In this document: positions 35,501 to 43,098 of the stretch, one piece after another
Layout: the number at the start of each line of letters is the position of its first letter
Numbering within the stretch: the stretch's first letter is position 1
Origin: Kibdelosporangium sp. MJ126-NF4
GTDB lineage: Bacteria > Actinomycetota > Actinomycetes > Mycobacteriales > Pseudonocardiaceae
Direction: 5' to 3'
NCBI RefSeq assembly: GCF_000826545.1
Contig: NZ_CDME01000002.1
Span: forward strand, 1,993,187 to 2,057,186
Length of the DNA: 64,000 nt
Notes under the pieces: model-generated
Seen by the model: only the letters and a program-made list of their open reading frames with translations
Databases searched by the model: none
Told to the model about the DNA's origin: nothing
Position numbers and translations under genes: made by a program

Positions 35501-36762
35501 CGACCGTCGGGGACACCGGCCACGGGCAGGTGCTGAGCGTCAAGGGCGCGCCGGAGGTGATCCTGCCGCGGTGCCGCAACCGCCGGGGAATGCTGAAGCG
35601 CGCGGAAAAGCTGGCCGCCGCGGGACATCGCGTCCTCGCCGTCGCCGAGAAGACCGTGAACGCGGCCGAGGTGACCGACGAGTGCGTGCGGGACCTGACA
35701 CTGCTCGGGTTCCTCGCGTTGGCCGACCCGGTCCGCGACAGCGCGCCACCGGCCGCGGCTGCCCTGCGTGACGCGGGCGTGCAGATCGTGATGATCACGG
35801 GCGACCACCCGGCCACCGGTGAGGCCATCGCCAGCAAGGTCAACGGATCCGGCAACTCCACTGTGGTCACCGGCGCCGATGTAGAGGAGCTCGGCGACGA
35901 CGAACTGGCTGAACTGCTGCCCGAAGTGGACGTGATCGCCCGGTGCAGCCCGGCGCAGAAGGTCCGGATCATCGAGGCGTACCGCGCGATGGGCCGGGTC
36001 GTGGCGATGACCGGTGACGGCGCCAACGACGCCCCCGCGATCCGGCTCGCCGATGTCGGGATCGCGTTGGGGCAGCGCGGAACCCCGGCCGCGAAGGCCG
36101 CCGCCGACCTCGTGGTGACCGACGACCGGCTTGAGACGATCATCGCCGCGTTGGTCGAGGGCAGGGCGATGTGGGCGTCCGTCCGCGAGGCACTGGGCAT
36201 CCTGCTCGGCGGCAACGCGGGCGAGATCGCGTTCAGCGTGCTCGGCTCGGTCCTCACTGGACGGTCGCCGCTGGGCGCGCGGCAACTGCTGCTGGTGAAC
36301 CTGCTCACGGACCTCGCGCCCGCACTGGCCATCGCACTGTCCCGCCCGGACGGTGAGTCTGTGCAGGATCTGTTGCGGGAAGGGCCAAGCGCGTCACTGG
36401 GAGCTGCGCTTGGCCGCGACATCACGGCACGCGCGATCACCACGACTCTCGGCGCGGGCACGGCATGGACCGCCGCCCGGTTCACCGGACGGGCCCGCCG
36501 GGCGAGCACAGTCGCGTTGGCGTCGCTGGTGGCCACGCAACTCGGGCAGACGCTGATCGCGGGCGGCAGGGACCGCACCGTGCTCGCGGCGGGACTGGGT
36601 TCGGCGGCGATCCTCGGCGGGGTGATTCAGACGCCCGGCGTCAGCCAGTTCTTCGGCTGCACGCCGTTGGGGCCGATCGGCTGGGGCATCGCGTTGTCCA
36701 GCGCGGCAGCCGCCAACCTGGCAGCGCCGGTGGTTACTCGGCTGATGCCGTCGTCAGAGTGA
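32563..36762 (+). CDS. Large cation-translocating P-type ATPase, CtpI/CtpH-like
   Basis: A 1399-residue ATPase. The phosphorylation site is Asp900 in CFDKTGTLTEG; the actuator loop LTGESLPVA and the hinge MTGDGANDAPAIRLADVGIALGQRGTPAAKAAADLVV are intact. The N-terminal ~110 residues resemble an HMA ferredoxin-like fold (LHVEVHGVQGP...GVVWAKVNAPASRVIMAV) without a CxxC. A second long region (residues ~280-560) contains a degenerate ATPase-like segment, as in mycobacterial CtpI and CtpH. The ion is unknown; an alkaline-earth or divalent metal is likely. GTG at 32563 has a weak GGGAAAG site. The 3' end overlaps the convergent sucrase-like gene by 29 bp. Confidence 0.9.
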   Translation: MKILGIPVPTPFSIARALLDRNRRNVWSCDGRLHVEVHGVQGPQGTRVARRVEKRLAEQPGVVWAKVNAPASRVIMAVTGEARPTDLVKLVERAESEPDTDEERIAEDELHHPADGATGTRLLPTLAVDAFGLLLSAITKISPWAPLPAEVAGLLSAVDMHPKLKARLGQYMQGHERADSATSMVAAVAHGLAARSESTMLDAAQRVQQYREAKAHKDAWCAAEADLITGPDDAGADPVVTERPRPVPDGPAERYAHRALVAGAAAGAVTLPFAGPRRAMGLALASLPKAVGVGRASFAAHLGRMLAKRGTLVMDRSALRLLDSVDVLVLDTSSLSSGRWLLSDLVPLPGTDPSDLVERAFGLFDPADPDTVRRDSGWVLGPVDELELEGRKGVRQRKSLAKRAKVLGLAHGDHLEAVLAVDKEPSPAVHAITTAARETGLELVTVTDNPVDTIRHLQSEDRVVMVVSSDREALGTADCGIGVQDDDIPPPWGAHLLVGTDLDAVVLLIEATQAARLVNRDGIRFAQAASGIGAVGALSSRRTSPAASSLRAVNGGATLAFVDGVWRARQVRGKSAKPDSAQPWHLMPVSMVLEAVRSDPGGLPSAEAQRRRRGTLLRDGVPDTSLGSAFLAELANPLTPVLAGGAALSAAVGSPADAGLVAGITGVSALIGAVQQVRTERSLAELLSRSAVHTTVLRDGKHTTIDANELVVGDVVDLDAGDVVPADCRLVEGSGLELDESSLTGESLPVAKDPAPVVADLAERASMLYEGTTIAAGHAKAVVVAVGDATEVGRSMAAAQRNTPVTGVEARLAELTRHALPVAIGSAAAVSGAGLLHGVPMRESLGAAVNLAVASVPEGLPFLINAAQLAAARRLADKGALVRNPRTIEALGRVDVLCFDKTGTLTEGKLSVGRVDSLAHSRHDVLTAAMRATPHADNPEDLAHQTDRAVLEGARDAKTANNGWKKVSTLPFEPSRGYHATVGDTGHGQVLSVKGAPEVILPRCRNRRGMLKRAEKLAAAGHRVLAVAEKTVNAAEVTDECVRDLTLLGFLALADPVRDSAPPAAAALRDAGVQIVMITGDHPATGEAIASKVNGSGNSTVVTGADVEELGDDELAELLPEVDVIARCSPAQKVRIIEAYRAMGRVVAMTGDGANDAPAIRLADVGIALGQRGTPAAKAAADLVVTDDRLETIIAALVEGRAMWASVREALGILLGGNAGEIAFSVLGSVLTGRSPLGARQLLLVNLLTDLAPALAIALSRPDGESVQDLLREGPSASLGAALGRDITARAITTTLGAGTAWTAARFTGRARRASTVALASLVATQLGQTLIAGGRDRTVLAAGLGSAAILGGVIQTPGVSQFFGCTPLGPIGWGIALSSAAAANLAAPVVTRLMPSSE

Positions 36763-37708
36763 TGTTCTCGGTGATGTAGCCACCGGGGGCGACCATCGCG
36801 TTGCACCGGCTCGGGCCGCGGCCGATCACGGCGCGCCGCGAGATGGTGACCTCGTATCGCTCCTGGCCCGCGCGGACGGTCACCACGCGCGCCTCGGATT
36901 CCAGGTCGGTTTCCACGGGGTGTTCGGAAACGGCGACCACGTCGTCGATGCCGCGCAGGCCGGTGTGCTTGCGCAGGGCGATCTCGGCGTACTGGGACCA
37001 TTGGGTTTCGGCGGCCGTGCGGCCGCGCAGGTGTTCCGGGTCGACCTGACCGGCCAGGGCGCCCTTGACGACGTTGTGCGCTTCGTCGGGGTCGAGTTGC
37101 CCGTGCAGGAAACCGTCCGGCACCACCAGGAGGTTGCCCGCCCAGCGGTCACCGCCGACGTGACTGACCTCCCATGCGCGACCTGGATAGGTGGCACCGA
37201 GCGATGCGGCCAGTGGCCTGCCGAGCAGCGCGCAGCACATGTCCTTGGTGCCGTGCGTGCAGACGAGGAACATCGGGCCGAGGTACGGCTTGCCGATGCC
37301 GCCGCGGCCGTCGACGATCGCGTCGAGGTCCAGGTCGGCGAGGTCCTGGAGTTCGTTGATGCGGAAGGATTCCATCCAGTGGCCACGGGGCCCGGATGTG
37401 CCGCCGACGAACACACGCCTGCCGGCCAGGTTCGGCTCGCGGGTGTGCCTGCCGGGCTGGCGGATCAGCAGGGGGCGCAGCCCGTGCGCGCGCAGCTCTT
37501 CGAGCCGGGCACGGCGTTCGGCGGGAAAGGCCTCTTCGATGGCGAGTTCCAGCGCGTCCGACGGCCACGGGCCCGGGTATTCGATCAACAGCCAGGCCCG
37601 CATGTGGGCGGCTGTGCCCGCTGGACTGCCACCGAGCATTCGCGCCACCACGGCGCAGCCCGGCAGCTTCCCGGCGGGAGCTGCGGCGCCAGAGAGCTGC
37701 GCGGTCAT
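36734..37708 (-). CDS. Sucrase/ferredoxin-like family protein
   Basis: A 324-residue protein of the sucraseferredoxin-like, thioredoxin-fold [2Fe-2S] group. CTHGTKDMCCALLGRPLA holds the cysteines, and EVSHVGGDRWAGNLLVVPDG is the conserved His-containing signature. Members are proposed redox or iron-handling proteins, and several lie in siderophore loci. An IdeR/DtxR-like box (TTAGGCATGCCTAA) is 34 bp upstream of the ATG, suggesting iron-repressed expression. It follows the JmjC gene with a 57-bp gap on the same strand, so it may have its own promoter. Confidence 0.85.
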   Translation of the reverse strand: MTAQLSGAAAPAGKLPGCAVVARMLGGSPAGTAAHMRAWLLIEYPGPWPSDALELAIEEAFPAERRARLEELRAHGLRPLLIRQPGRHTREPNLAGRRVFVGGTSGPRGHWMESFRINELQDLADLDLDAIVDGRGGIGKPYLGPMFLVCTHGTKDMCCALLGRPLAASLGATYPGRAWEVSHVGGDRWAGNLLVVPDGFLHGQLDPDEAHNVVKGALAGQVDPEHLRGRTAAETQWSQYAEIALRKHTGLRGIDDVVAVSEHPVETDLESEARVVTVRAGQERYEVTISRRAVIGRGPSRCNAMVAPGGYITENITLTTASAE

Positions 37709-37741
37709 CCGACCGCCACCCCCTGGCGCTGCGAACTTATC

Positions 37742-37755
37742 TTAGGCATGCCTAA
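37742..37755. promoter_or_regulatory. IdeR/DtxR-like iron box
   Basis: TTAGGCATGCCTAA is a perfect palindrome in AT-rich DNA. Its TTAGG/CCTAA halves match DtxR-family iron boxes. It lies between the JmjC gene stop and the start of the sucrase/ferredoxin-like gene. Confidence 0.7.
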
Positions 37756-37765
37756 TCTTACATGC

Positions 37766-38956
37766 CTAGGCCACAGCCAGCAGCCCCTGGGTGATCAACT
37801 CGCCGAGAAGGGCACGGACAGTCACCCGATCCAGCGTCGGTTCGGCCATTTCCACCAGCGTCTCCACCGTCGTCGGCGTCCCGCTGAGCAGGGCGGACAG
37901 CACAGGCCCGGCGGCGGCACCGAAGGTGAACCGGCTGCCGGATGCGAGAAGCGTCACTGTCGCGTCCTGGTGCTGCAGGACCGCACGCGGCGTCAGCAGA
38001 CGGACAGTCGCCGTGTCCTGCGGCGGCAACAGGTCCGACGTCGCCGCCCACGGCAGGCCGATCCGGGTGTACGCCGGGCCGTGCGCGTCACGGTCGGTGA
38101 GGAACCGGTCGACCAGGTCCGGCGTCAGCAGCGCCTCGATCCCCGCCCTGAGCTCGGCGGCGTGTGCGTGGCGTGCCGATTCCGGCCCGAACCTGGGCAG
38201 GTCGCGGCGGAACCGCTCGTCGACGCGCAACTGGTCGGCGAGCCAGTTGACCAGGTCGATCCCGGTCGCCGGGTTGAACCCGATGGTCAGGTGCAGCGAC
38301 TGCTCGCCGATCGCCGACACGTCGTGCCAGTGGCCGCGCGGCACGTACAACGCGTCGCCGTCCTCCAGCATGAACTCCGCGATCGGCTCGGCGGGCGGCT
38401 GCGGCGGCGGCTCGACGTCCCGATGCAGCGGCGACGGACGCGTGGCACCGTGGATCCGCCAGCGTTTGCGGCCGGAGATCTGCAGGATGAACGCGTCGTG
38501 GTCGTCCCAGTGCACGTCGAAACCGTGTGTCTTGCCCCAGCCCGCGTACAGGTTCACCTGAACCCGTTCCCGCAGGTCGTGCTCCAGCCGCGCGGTCAGG
38601 TCGGCCACCGGGTCGACGAGTTCCTGCACGGCGTCGAGCACCAGGGTGGCGCCGTTGCGCAGGTGTTCGGTGAGCGGCGCGGACAGCAGCTTCGGGATCT
38701 GCGGGCCACGCTTGGGCGTCACCATCTCCGTGTACGTGTGGGTGGGAACGACGTCGCCGTCCATGGCCAGCCGCAGCCGCGGGAAGTCGAGGCGGTGCTG
38801 GCGCAGCACGGTGTTCAGCGTCGACCACGGCATCAAGGAGGCGAACCGGCCCGCAGTTCCGGGGAACCGGTGGTGGGACTGGCCTTGCACCGAACCGAGG
38901 AACTGGCTGACCTCGAGCGGTGCCACGAGGTCAGCCAGGGTGAACGATCCGGCCAC
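37766..38956 (-). CDS. JmjC/cupin-4 2-oxoglutarate-dependent oxygenase
   Basis: A 396-residue protein with a RoxA/YcfD-like core. The Fe ligands His149 and Asp151 lie in FDVHWDDHDAFILQISGRKRW, and the distal His211 in GDALYVPRGHWHDV. A winged-helix-like C-terminal domain follows (VLSALLSGTPTTVETLVEMAE...LLGELITQGLLAVA). Such enzymes hydroxylate residues in ribosomal proteins or peptides. The start GTG at 38956 directly abuts the stop of a 41-residue peptide gene (TGA|GTG), so the two are strictly coupled in translation. This supports the peptide being its substrate; hydroxylation of ribosomal protein is the alternative. Confidence 0.88.
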   Translation of the reverse strand: MAGSFTLADLVAPLEVSQFLGSVQGQSHHRFPGTAGRFASLMPWSTLNTVLRQHRLDFPRLRLAMDGDVVPTHTYTEMVTPKRGPQIPKLLSAPLTEHLRNGATLVLDAVQELVDPVADLTARLEHDLRERVQVNLYAGWGKTHGFDVHWDDHDAFILQISGRKRWRIHGATRPSPLHRDVEPPPQPPAEPIAEFMLEDGDALYVPRGHWHDVSAIGEQSLHLTIGFNPATGIDLVNWLADQLRVDERFRRDLPRFGPESARHAHAAELRAGIEALLTPDLVDRFLTDRDAHGPAYTRIGLPWAATSDLLPPQDTATVRLLTPRAVLQHQDATVTLLASGSRFTFGAAAGPVLSALLSGTPTTVETLVEMAEPTLDRVTVRALLGELITQGLLAVA

Positions 38957-39082
38957 TCAGTCGTTGCCGTCGTTGTCGGTCACGGCACCGTTGGCCTTGC
39001 CACGGTCCACGGCGGTGGTGAGCGGCTCGACGCCGATCAGCAGGCCGCTCGCCGGGGGTGTGTTCGCCTGTTCCTGAGCCAT
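38957..39082 (-). CDS. 41-residue peptide, candidate RiPP-like precursor
   Basis: The ATG at 39082 follows GTGAGGTACGG, a usable ribosome site. The product opens MAQEQANTPPASGLLIGVEP and ends in an Asp/Asn/Gly-rich tail (GAVTDNDGND). There is no Cys, Trp or Tyr, and no transmembrane stretch. Codon third positions are mostly G or C, as in real genes here. The stop touches the JmjC start, and a promoter-like TATCTA lies upstream in the 76-bp gap. A leader (GLLIGVEPLTTAV) plus Asp/Asn-rich core arrangement, and the partner oxygenase, fit a ribosomally made, hydroxylated peptide. This is inference; it could also be an antitoxin-like or regulatory microprotein. Confidence 0.68.
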   Translation of the reverse strand: MAQEQANTPPASGLLIGVEPLTTAVDRGKANGAVTDNDGND

Positions 39083-39158
39083 CCGTACCTCACAGAGTGT
39101 TAGATAGGACCGGACACTTCGTAACCACTGGCCAGATTACGTGATCAACAGCGCGGTT

Positions 39159-40040
39159 TCATCGGTCATTCGGGGTGGTTCCCATTACCTTGACGTGATC
39201 CAGCTCCAGCAACGCCAGGTAGTCGCGCAACGGCCGGTCGCCGACGGTGATCCGCAGCCACAGCTGGCCGTCCACAGTGGTCACTTCCAGCCCGTTCTTC
39301 GCCAGGTCGGCGACCGTCTCGTCAGCGGCACCGGCCGGGCGGAACACCACGGTCGCCAGGGTGGGCCGGTCCCACAGCCGCAGGCCCGGCCGGGCGGTCA
39401 CGGCGTCGGCGAGGGCGGCCGCCATGTCGCACCGGCGTTCGGCGGCCGGTCCGATGTCCGACCGACAGGCGCGGAACACGGCGGCGACCTCGGGATGCCC
39501 CATCATCCGCACTCCGGTCAACGAACCGACGTCGCGCACGGCCAGCAAACCCGTCGAAGCCCCCAGTTCGGGCAATTCGACCGTCACCGAGTCGGCGAGG
39601 TCGATCCCGTCGAGCAAGGGCCGCAAGCGATCGCTGAACAGCATCGCTCCCCCACCGGCCGCGTCCACGTGTAACCAGCTGCCCCGGCGGCGGCACACCC
39701 TGCCGATGTCGCGCAACGGATCGATCGAGCCGGTGTCGGCCGTTCCCGCCGAGGCCACGACCACCGACACGTCCGGCAGCCGCGCGAGCGCCTCGGCGAC
39801 GTGCGCGATCGAGTCGAGCACCACCGGCGGCGGCAACTCCAACTGCTCGGCCGCGTCCGCCACGCTCGGCCGGGCGCTGCGGGCACAGACCACACGCACC
39901 GGCGCGCCCGCCGCGTCCTTCTTCGCCAGCAGCATGCCGAGCAGCGTGGACTCCGTGCCGCCGTTGGTGATCACCGCCCCGGGCGCGCCGCGCGGGAAGC
40001 ACAACCGTGCGACACCGGACTGAATCGACGGCTCGATCAT
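39159..40040 (-). CDS. PLP-decarboxylase-fold protein lacking the catalytic lysine
   Basis: A 293-residue relative of group II pyridoxal-dependent decarboxylases. It retains VITNGGTESTLLGMLLAKK (phosphate-loop region) and WLHVDAAGGGAMLFS (His124 and Asp126). The segment that normally reads DSVTVD-HK reads ADSVTVELPELGASTGLL here, so the PLP-binding lysine is missing. The N-terminal ~110 residues of the family are absent too. The ATG at 40040 overlaps the previous stop (ATGA), and the frame is intact with normal codon use. It is therefore more likely a repurposed protein than simple decay. Role unknown. Confidence 0.78.
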   Translation of the reverse strand: MIEPSIQSGVARLCFPRGAPGAVITNGGTESTLLGMLLAKKDAAGAPVRVVCARSARPSVADAAEQLELPPPVVLDSIAHVAEALARLPDVSVVVASAGTADTGSIDPLRDIGRVCRRRGSWLHVDAAGGGAMLFSDRLRPLLDGIDLADSVTVELPELGASTGLLAVRDVGSLTGVRMMGHPEVAAVFRACRSDIGPAAERRCDMAAALADAVTARPGLRLWDRPTLATVVFRPAGAADETVADLAKNGLEVTTVDGQLWLRITVGDRPLRDYLALLELDHVKVMGTTPNDR

Positions 40041-40987
40041 TCCGGCGCCAGTGCCCTGACCACCTTGCGCGGGTCCGCACCGGTCGGCAGCACACTGATC
40101 ACCGGCGTGTCCAGACCGGACTCGACGTACTGGGCGACGATCTCCCGGCAGCGTTCCGGGCTGCCGTGCACGATCAGCGCGTCGACCACCTCGTCCGGGA
40201 TGACCTCGTTGGCCCGCTGCCGGTCGCCCGCCGCCCACGCTTCGTGCATGGGTTTGAGCAGCTCCCCGCGGCCGAGCCAGTCGTGGAACGCCGCGTACAC
40301 CGGCACGGTCAGGTAGCTGGAGATCAGCAGCCTGCCCAGGCCGCGTGCCGCGTTCACGTCCTCGGTCGGGCAGACGAACACCCTGGCCACCAGTTCGAAG
40401 CCCGCGCCGACCTCGGCACGGACCTGGGGCACGTCGGACGGCGCCAGCCAGTTCGTGATCGCGCCGTCGGCCTCCTTGCGCGCCAGCTTGAGCATGCCCG
40501 GCCGCAGCGCGGCGAGCATGATCCTGGGCGGCGGCTTCGGCGGGTTCTCCAGTCGGAACTTCGAGATCTCGAATGTCGGGTACTTCTCGGTGACCTTCTG
40601 CCCGGTGAACGCGGAACGCAGAAACCGCAACGTGTCCCGAGTACGCGCGTACGGTTCGGTGAACTCCTGTGCGTTCCACCCCTGCACGATCACCGGCGAC
40701 GAAGTGCCGATACCGAGTACGAAACGGTCCGGCGCCAGCTCGGCGATGGTGGCCGCGGTCATGGCCAGCAAGCCGGGACCGCGCGTGTACACCGGGGCGA
40801 TCGCGGTGCCCAGGCGCAGTTCCGGTGCCCACTCGGCGGCCAGCGCGAGCGGCGTGAACGCGTCGGTTCCGGCGGTTTCGGCGGTCCACACGTCGGTGTA
40901 CCCGAGCTCCGGCAACTCTCTGACCAGGTCGCGGTGTTCGGCGAGCGGAACTCCGATCAGTGGCAGCGTGATGCCCCAGCGGCCCAT
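40037..40987 (-). CDS. LLM-class flavin-dependent oxidoreductase
   Basis: A 316-residue luciferase-like monooxygenase family protein. Seen are GITLPLIGVPLAEHRDLVRELPELGYTDVWTAET, APVYTRGPGLLAMTAATIAEL, FVLGIGTSSPVIVQGWNA and PPRIMLAALRPGMLKLARKEADG. This fits the F420-dependent actinobacterial subgroup, but FMN cannot be excluded. ATG at 40987 has AAGGGA 9 nt upstream and lies 23 bp after the S9 peptidase stop. It is coupled to the lysine-less PLP-fold gene by an ATGA overlap, so the two products probably act together. The substrate is unknown. Confidence 0.88.
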   Translation of the reverse strand: MGRWGITLPLIGVPLAEHRDLVRELPELGYTDVWTAETAGTDAFTPLALAAEWAPELRLGTAIAPVYTRGPGLLAMTAATIAELAPDRFVLGIGTSSPVIVQGWNAQEFTEPYARTRDTLRFLRSAFTGQKVTEKYPTFEISKFRLENPPKPPPRIMLAALRPGMLKLARKEADGAITNWLAPSDVPQVRAEVGAGFELVARVFVCPTEDVNAARGLGRLLISSYLTVPVYAAFHDWLGRGELLKPMHEAWAAGDRQRANEVIPDEVVDALIVHGSPERCREIVAQYVESGLDTPVISVLPTGADPRKVVRALAPE

Positions 40988-41010
40988 TCACATATTCCCT
41001 TCTTGCGCCT

Positions 41011-43098
41011 CTACCGGACCTTACCCAGTGCGTCCTTCAGCCAGGTCGTCTGCAACAGCAGGAAATTCTCGGCGGACGCCTCGTCCTGGGGTGTCATGTG
41101 CGTCACGTTCGGCAACGGCAGCAGCGTGTGCGGCTTCCCGGCAGCCACGAGTGCGGCGGAGAGACGCAGGGAATGGGCCACGACGACGTTGTCATCGGCC
41201 AGCCCGTGGATGATCATGAGTTCGCGCTCGAGGTTCGGCGCGTCGGCGGGCAGCGAGTTGCGCTCGTACACCTCCGGGTGAGTGTCGGGCCTGCCGAGGT
41301 AACGCTCGGTGTAGTGCGTGTCGTACAGCTTCCAGTCGGTCACGGGCGCGCCCGCGATGGCCGCGTGGAACACATCAGGACGGCGCAATACGGCGAGAGC
41401 CGCCAGATAGCCGCCGTAGGACCAGCCGCGGATGCCCACGCGGGACAGATCCAGGTCGGGGTACTCCCGCGCGGCCGCGTGCAACCCGTCGATCTGGTCC
41501 ATCAGCGTGACGTCGGCGAGGTCGAACGCGATCTCGCGTTCCCACACCGGTCCCCGGCCCGGCGTGCCGCGGCCGTCGATCACCAGCACCGCGAAACCCT
41601 GGTCCGCCAGCCATTGCGAGGTCAGGTAGGCGTTGCGGGAGGCGAGCACCCGCTGCGCGTGCGGGCCGCCGTACGGGTCGAGCAGGACGGGCAGCTTGCC
41701 GCTGCCCGGCTCGTGTCCGGCCGGGAACAGCAACGCGCCACGGAGTTTTCGCTCGCCGAGCGTCAACCGGATGACCTTCGGTTCCAGTGACGGCGTGACG
41801 GCGAGCGACTCGATGTTCGCGATCCGAGCGCCGTCGCGCAGCACGGCCACCTCCGGCCCGGCCGCGTCCATTCGCCACGATGTCAGCACGGTGACCCCAC
41901 CGGCCCGCGTCGCCGACGACACACCCTCTACAGAGGACACTCGGGTGACGCCATCCGGTCCCGCGCGGTACACGTGCACCTGAGCCGGGTCGTCGGCGGA
42001 CGCCGTGAACAGCACGTCCTCGCCCGCGTCGAGCACCGAGCGCACCTGCAACGCACCATCGGTGACGCGCTTGCCGTCGACGACGAGACGGTTGGCGTCG
42101 TCCTCGGCGACGACCCGCACCAACCGTCCGTCGGGCGTCCACGCCGGAGCGCCCGCGACGATGTCCACCCAGTGCGGGTCGGTCTGCTCGTGCAGCAGCT
42201 CGGTGTCGCCGGTGTCCGGGTCGACCGTCCGGATCTGCATGGTCCGCTGGTCACGGGTCTGCACGCCGATCAGCGGGGAACCGCCCGCCGACCAGTGCAC
42301 GGTCGCCAGGTACTCGCCGTCGGTCCAGTCCACGCTGACACGGGACCCGTCCAACCCGAGCACGAACAGCCGCACCTGCACGTTCGGCGTGCCCGCGGCG
42401 GGATAGTGCACGGTGTGCGGCTGGACGGCGGGGTTGGCCGGATCCGAGATGTGCCACTGGTGCACCGCCGAGCGGTCGGTGTGGCTGACGATCAGCCGAC
42501 GGCCGTCCGGCGACCACCAGTAGCCGCGGGATCGGCCCATCTCCTCGGCCGCGATGAACTCGGCGAGACCGTACGCCCGGTTCTCCCCCTCCGGCTCGGC
42601 CAGCGCGCGGTCGCCCGTACCGTCCACATTCACCACACGCAGCGCGTTGCCCGAGACGTACGCGATGTGTGTTCCGGTCGGGTCCGGGCGTGGGTCCACC
42701 ACGGGTGTGGCGGTGTCCAACTGCCGCGTCTGCCCGCTCAGCGCGTCGGTGACGTACAGGCGGCCGGACAGGGCGAACGCGACGGTCCGCGCGGCGGCGT
42801 CGGTCGCGTTGCCCACGATGCCACTGGCCTGCAACCTGCTGCGCTCGCGGCGGGCACGCTCCTCGGCGGACAGTTCCTCGTCGCCGTCGGCCAGCAGCAC
42901 GGCGGGATCGGCCAACACGGACTCCTTGCCGGTGGCCAGATCGAGCTGCCACAGGCTGTGCCTGCGTTCCTCCCCGGACGGTGACCGCAGGAACAGCACA
43001 CGGTCGCCGTCCGGCGCGACCTTGATCTCCTTGGGGGTGCCGAGCGTGAAGCGCTGGGTGCGGGCCTGCAGCTTGAGGAAGGATGTCTCGCGAGTCAC
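41011..43098 (-). CDS. S9 family peptidase (dipeptidyl-peptidase IV-like)
   Basis: A 695-residue serine peptidase. An N-terminal beta-propeller of ~430 residues (KEIKVAPDGDRVLFLRSPSG...) precedes an alpha/beta-hydrolase domain. The nucleophile elbow is GWSYGGYLA, with Asp in HGLADDNVVVAHS and His in NVTHM. A DPP4-type WD-rich region includes SRGYWWSPDGRRLIVSHTD. No signal peptide is seen, so it is likely cytoplasmic, cutting short peptides. It heads the minus-strand gene set that contains the LLM and PLP-fold genes, and could process a peptide product. Confidence 0.9.
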   Translation of the reverse strand: MTRETSFLKLQARTQRFTLGTPKEIKVAPDGDRVLFLRSPSGEERRHSLWQLDLATGKESVLADPAVLLADGDEELSAEERARRERSRLQASGIVGNATDAAARTVAFALSGRLYVTDALSGQTRQLDTATPVVDPRPDPTGTHIAYVSGNALRVVNVDGTGDRALAEPEGENRAYGLAEFIAAEEMGRSRGYWWSPDGRRLIVSHTDRSAVHQWHISDPANPAVQPHTVHYPAAGTPNVQVRLFVLGLDGSRVSVDWTDGEYLATVHWSAGGSPLIGVQTRDQRTMQIRTVDPDTGDTELLHEQTDPHWVDIVAGAPAWTPDGRLVRVVAEDDANRLVVDGKRVTDGALQVRSVLDAGEDVLFTASADDPAQVHVYRAGPDGVTRVSSVEGVSSATRAGGVTVLTSWRMDAAGPEVAVLRDGARIANIESLAVTPSLEPKVIRLTLGERKLRGALLFPAGHEPGSGKLPVLLDPYGGPHAQRVLASRNAYLTSQWLADQGFAVLVIDGRGTPGRGPVWEREIAFDLADVTLMDQIDGLHAAAREYPDLDLSRVGIRGWSYGGYLAALAVLRRPDVFHAAIAGAPVTDWKLYDTHYTERYLGRPDTHPEVYERNSLPADAPNLERELMIIHGLADDNVVVAHSLRLSAALVAAGKPHTLLPLPNVTHMTPQDEASAENFLLLQTTWLKDALGKVR

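Follow-up and report, generated by a model that had tools for sequence, protein, structure and literature searches.

JmjC enzymes that act on RiPPs are already known from the biphenomycins: according to two reports, JmjC/cupin enzymes hydroxylate Orn in biphenomycin-type RiPPs (PMC12257519, PMC12707348). A further report describes RRE-like folds fused to JmjC domains (PF08007), with bacterial homologues in RiPP-like contexts; in the passage concerned, neither a precursor family nor an Asp/Gly core nor a partner of the ferredoxin kind is mentioned (PMC12710340). Within PF08007, the closest described proteins are NO66, MINA53 and YcfD (RoxA). The window analysed here, a stretch of 64,000 nucleotides from Kibdelosporangium sp. 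MJ126-NF4, encodes an enzyme that is ~20% identical to these hydroxylases but is paired with a short peptide gene. It would resemble the biphenomycin enzymes PbsQ, BpmG and BipG, as described, in being a JmjC/cupin oxygenase directed at a residue of a RiPP precursor. Those three enzymes, however, have Orn as their target and are accompanied by MNIO, radical SAM and arginase proteins, none of which belongs to the three-gene cassette of the window, in a comparison drawn at the level of descriptions. The closest known kind of the third gene product is that of the Suc_Fer-like / thioredoxin-like [2Fe-2S] ferredoxins. A description of the peptide family was not found in the literature searched, a partial set with few subscription papers and no bioRxiv preprints. 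The features of the locus, with positions in the window and the basis of each assignment, are:

36734..37708, minus strand: Suc_Fer-like protein, PF06999, containing a [2Fe-2S] ferredoxin domain of the thioredoxin-like kind (conserved partner in the cassette)
37742..37755, no strand: palindrome TTAGGCATGCCTAA, candidate DtxR/IdeR-like operator before the ferredoxin gene (sequence)
37766..38956, minus strand: JmjC_2 (PF08007) oxygenase, ribosomal-oxygenase-like, 396 aa, GTG start (Pfam and predicted fold)
37769..38008, minus strand: C-terminal domain, a strand followed by a helix, at enzyme residues 317-396 (within the part aligned to the winged helix that ends NO66/YcfD)
38324..38326, minus strand: codon of His211, Fe(II) site (alignment)
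38504..38512, minus strand: codons of His149 to Asp151, Fe(II) site (alignment)
38957..39082, minus strand: precursor-like peptide gene, type A, 41 aa (tail found at all 38 close loci; under purifying selection)
38960..38986, minus strand: putative core tail AVTDNDGND, peptide residues 33-41 (pLDDT <50 in the fused model)
39020..39049, minus strand: putative leader motif SGLLIGVEPL, peptide residues 12-21 (of these, 15-20 form a strand in the fused model)
39087..39091, minus strand: Shine-Dalgarno-like GAGG(T) ahead of the peptide ATG (sequence)

The 41-codon ORF translates as MAQEQANTPPASGLLIGVEPLTTAVDRGKANGAVTDNDGND, and its TGA stop abuts the GTG of the JmjC ORF in the same frame, with zero bases between them. 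An earlier note on this DNA had described this arrangement, together with a ribosome site for the peptide gene, an intact Fe triad and a peptide divided into a leader-like half and an Asp/Asn/Gly tail. All four observations hold: the GAGG lies before the ATG, the HxD...H residues His149, Asp151 and His211 are all in place and do not vary across an alignment of 59 rows (H191, D193 and H253 in fusion numbering), and a structural model of peptide and enzyme as one chain separates an ordered strand from a disordered core. Alignment A1 leaves out 7 of the 28 possible paired rows. Neither Pfam nor NCBIfam gave a match for the window peptide, NCBIfam gave none for the P0150, P0151, L060 or L117 peptides, and an Rfam scan of 36500-41500 gave none either; in public protein sets the window peptide is represented by 29 proteins at E<=1. 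A 727-codon open frame on the plus strand (36920-39103), antisense to the peptide gene, the oxygenase gene and part of the ferredoxin gene, is probably a by-product of high GC content.

A scan of public genomes with the enzyme as query yielded 42 loci with a relative (L001-L042). Those at 62-95% enzyme identity (L001-L038), here called close loci, come mostly from Kibdelosporangium, Actinocrispum, Kutzneria, Amycolatopsis, Saccharothrix and Actinosynnema, and all 38 have a frame ending in DGND(G) upstream of the enzyme. An Asp/Gly-type small ORF occupies this position at L040, L041 and L042, and an upstream small ORF was not found at L039. Residues A, D, D, G, N and D of the AVTDNDGND tail are invariant throughout the close loci, as are K18, G21, A22, D25, D27, G28, N29 and D30 in the numbering of the 30-residue tail. 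For 37 distinct tails taken together, pN is 0.107 and pS 0.336; purifying selection is strongest over the last 18 codons (pN 0.037, pS 0.303), and in both shifted frames pN exceeds pS. The 41-codon ORF is a real gene, and its presence is beyond chance. Because the core half of type A is steadier than the more variable leader half, its conservation would suit a fixed product better than a diversifying antibiotic. One of the close loci, L004 (JOAA01000014.1), is titled Rhodococcus rhodnii and carries the cassette at 87% enzyme identity among Kibdelosporangium-like neighbours; its label may be wrong, or the assembly mixed.

The pair is not confined to these genera. In 121 of 200 sampled genomes of one actinomycete order an enzyme relative is present at E<=0.001, and at the distant loci L055-L075 (31-39% identity) an Asp/Gly-rich small frame was found at the enzyme start in 20 of 21, all except L058, many of the peptides having long repeats such as DGGADGGA. 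Among 394 genomes of the class Actinomycetes, 125 have an enzyme match at E<=1e-15; 29 loci from the best rows of this search (L101-L129) include 26 with a small frame that combines a leader-like part and an Asp/Asn/Gly core, while 20 weaker, hand-picked rows have the peptide in 16, the Suc_Fer-like protein in 15 and at least one of them in all 20. The loci at which the peptide was not found are L039, L058, L085, L106, L115, L129, L150, L154, L161 and L164, some of them contig ends. Two enzyme copies in genome G072 stand beside different peptides, of type A (L047) and type D (L082). Outside the Actinomycetes, two Phenylobacterium contigs, both from the scan that yielded the 42 loci, have an Asp/Asn/Gly-rich small ORF at the enzyme start, and among 200 genomes of that genus's order only the query's own genome matched. 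Plasmid records matched 142 times (Streptomyces 82, Escherichia 25, Acinetobacter 9, and others). The five that were read, all from Streptomyces (L141-L145), carry a cassette of peptide, JmjC enzyme, aldo/keto reductase and kinase-like protein, in which the peptide is annotated 'hypothetical protein' and the enzyme 'cupin'; some of the five have a divergent HTH or TPR gene upstream. These observations support a pairing that is conserved and recurs over the enzyme clades, in most of the JmjC_2 relatives read in Actinomycetes. The earlier note had proposed to look for selection on the 41-codon frame and for small frames beside homologous oxygenases, and both searches came out in its favour. Its proposal of a RiPP is borne out as far as co-occurrence, purifying selection and the leader and core halves are concerned, and the role of the peptide as substrate is one that we infer.

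The association was also set against controls. A small ORF rich in D, N, G, S or T lies just upstream of 91 of 118 JmjC ORFs versus 17 of 552 other large ORFs at the same loci, and a strict form of the criterion gives 74 of 118 versus 5 of 552, the criterion having been fixed after the peptides had been seen. The 118 include close relatives and nine duplicate loci (L131-L137, L139, L140), some other duplicates having been left out, and thus are not independent events; at many of the 27 misses a peptide is present, excluded by its distance or by the rule for start codons. A profile trained on types B-E of the peptide, none of its sequences being of the window type, was searched against 16142 segments (1.02 Mb). 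This test is not blind, since the training peptides were chosen partly by a leader pattern modelled on peptides seen beforehand. The window peptide was the top segment of the window (E=0.012), and all 38 close peptides outranked the first non-peptide segment (weakest 0.56 versus 0.86, in a listing of the window and L001-L042), and for six of them E is no better than 0.02-0.16, reaching 0.56 at worst. A tree of 83 enzymes, with one faulty row (L121) and type labels assigned after the peptides had been read, requires 9 changes for the eight peptide types, with a minimum of 7 and a shuffled mean of 47.6; types F, C and G do not each form one clade (2, 2 and 3 changes). Peptide types follow enzyme clades.

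The JmjC ORF matches JmjC_2 (PF08007) at E=5e-28, and Cupin_8 as well. Its predicted fold agrees along its length with the protein hydroxylases NO66/MINA53/YcfD, including C-terminal regions as in NO66/YcfD, and the model thereby supports a protein-hydroxylase fold. The curated ROXA-like_wH model is matched by 4 of 59 members at E<=0.01 and by 4 of 24 at E<=0.05, the window's enzyme not being among them. The order of strands and helices in the C-terminal part fits an RRE; the match to the RRE-like PqqD is weak at the sequence level (1 of 59 members, E=0.0073), as is that to the lasso PqqD (1 of 24 members, E=0.038). PF08007 matches also occur in E. coli, B. subtilis, Synechococcus and Haloferax, in a search that covered the enzyme family, and were counted against a RiPP assignment. 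AlphaFold2 was run on the in-frame read-through of peptide and enzyme as one chain, and returned a ribosomal-oxygenase fold, a confident leader strand (mean pLDDT 92 over block 11-20) and a disordered core, in a model whose tether may partly force the docking. Guidance by the leader would be in keeping with this ordered strand in the tethered model and with a leader-like part that is common to the peptide types.

RiPP clusters usually consist of a common precursor-enzyme core with exchangeable neighbours. In the clade of the window the neighbour is the Suc_Fer-like gene, whose product combines the PF06999 match with a thioredoxin-like ferredoxin domain with conserved Cys/His; it is present in 38 of 38 type A loci and lies downstream in 18 of the 19 loci L057-L075, the exception, L064, being a short contig piece. 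Comparison of this protein with the sequences of solved structures gave nothing useful. The counts support the ferredoxin as a conserved partner of the peptide-enzyme pair in this clade, a partnership that, like the much wider family to which the pair belongs, goes beyond the earlier note. Within L101-L129, an aldo/keto reductase is found at 12 of 12 type B loci, together with a second protein common to them. This second protein is kinase-like: among four examples tested, that of L132 passes the APH cut-off (E=4e-8), another two give weaker matches and the last gives none. Type C loci of the same set have a relative of prolyl oligopeptidase upstream of the peptide in 14 of 14 (Pfam-checked for two), a candidate for leader removal, and loci of types D, E and H have the kinase-like protein and, within the sequence stretch examined, none of the remaining partners. 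The S9 peptidase at 41011-43098 was considered as the leader peptidase of the window type and rejected; it is found in just 15 of 38 close loci, and is therefore not counted as part of the cassette. No protease or exporter is among the members of the window's cassette, which was likewise weighed against a RiPP assignment. In 17 of 38 close loci the upstream neighbours include a luciferase-like monooxygenase (40037-40987, in the region 39159-40987 of the window), and the frame adjoining it has only a partial match to pyridoxal-dependent decarboxylases.

The 14-mer palindrome before the ferredoxin gene is exact in 27 of 38 close loci and has one mismatch in the other 11. It is a candidate for an operator of the DtxR/IdeR type, whose consensus spans 19 bases. 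Five of ten other palindrome sites lie by iron- or NRPS-type genes. One-mismatch strand hits number 10 in G001, 5 in G003 and 6 in G086, with 3, 2 and 0 for a reversed-pattern control, so that some of these sites are due to chance, and one of five genomes lacks the exact palindrome. In G001 a single further exact copy was found, next to a gene of the EspG family, which belongs to ESX secretion (L080). By eye, an ATG inside the palindrome could be a leaderless ferredoxin start in some relatives, for example L008 and L015; the frame of the window stops early. Because the DtxR-like palindrome precedes the ferredoxin gene, an iron-linked role of the cassette is possible. 3-Hydroxyaspartate is a ligand in non-ribosomal siderophores. 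It can be speculated, although we think it doubtful, that the cassette is a ribosomal route to a metallophore, in which the JmjC enzyme would turn core Asp into 3-hydroxyaspartate and an iron-regulated [2Fe-2S] ferredoxin would reduce or release the bound iron.

We propose that the cassette is probably a RiPP-like system, in which a leader-guided JmjC enzyme hydroxylates the core of a short precursor, with the ferredoxin as a third member in the clade of the window. A genetically encoded short, precursor-like peptide stands beside a candidate modifying enzyme in 38 of 38 close loci. The short gene would encode the precursor, whose leader, GLLIGVEPL, would add a beta strand to the JmjC enzyme of ribosomal-oxygenase type, the likeliest docking site being the C-terminal winged-helix domain, which would act like an RRE. 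The docked leader would bring the Asp/Asn/Gly core, which is flexible, within reach of the Fe(II)/2-oxoglutarate site, and the enzyme would then hydroxylate core residues, most likely at the beta carbons of Asp/Asn, after which the matured product would leave its leader. Coupled translation would keep precursor and enzyme together. The ferredoxin, probably iron-regulated, may donate electrons or have as its target a product that binds iron.

Other explanations can be weighed on the same evidence. The zero-base TGA-GTG junction recurs in 27 of 38 close loci, in frame, as would suit a TGA that is read through to yield a functional peptide-oxygenase fusion. The remaining 11, however, have TAG or TGA with 3-16 bases to the enzyme start, some of them out of frame. 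Coupling is thus usual and not obligatory, read-through is not required, and the fusion, rejected on these 11 loci, is extremely improbable. The same coupling would suit an enzyme that is a YcfD-like ribosomal protein oxygenase behind a translated leader ORF of purely regulatory function, as would the agreement in fold with NO66/MINA53/YcfD and the label of ribosomal protein L16 Arg81 hydroxylase that one source gives to several relatives. This is very unlikely, in our view, as the peptide is conserved at the amino-acid level, and more so in its C-terminal half, the peptide types have leader-like parts yet different cores, the two enzyme copies of G072 accompany different peptides, copies occur on plasmids, and 79 of the 200 sampled genomes of the order are without a match.

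The confident leader strand of the fused model and the nearly invariant type A core would also be expected of a peptide that binds the enzyme as an inhibitor, chaperone or adaptor subunit. Across the clades, however, the core may be a short tail or a long series of Asp/Gly repeats, and the place beside the peptide is taken by tailoring enzymes in some and by a peptidase in others; this variation suits a substrate better than a binding partner, a role that we regard as quite improbable. If the peptide is the substrate, the change may still be other than beta-hydroxylation of Asp/Asn, such as hydroxylation of Arg or Lys in VDRGK, a cross-link or oxidation of the backbone. R16, K18 and G21 of the 30-residue tail are also invariant, YcfD is filed as an arginine hydroxylase, and partially available reports have BipG acting on Orn and 2OG-dependent macrocyclisation in RiPPs. 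The repeat cores of many relatives, however, consist mainly of Asp, Gly and Ala, with few or no Arg and Lys, and such a change seems rather unlikely, if a serious contender.

Hydroxylation of Asp/Asn in a leader-guided precursor remains our preferred proposal, and the pairs point to a little-studied group of ribosomally made, modified peptides. If this is right, the common and unnamed actinobacterial pairs of a 'cupin' and a 'hypothetical protein' would constitute a system for modifying peptides, with substrates recognisable in the sequence itself, and would be a source of hydroxylated Asp/Asn peptides. They would also be suited to examining the relationship between ribosomal oxygenases and RiPP enzymes. 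In the clade of the window, peptide modification may be tied to iron supply; were the metallophore proposal true, the cassette would represent a ribosomal route to hydroxyaspartate iron chelators, and the repeat-type relatives would be its multi-site versions.
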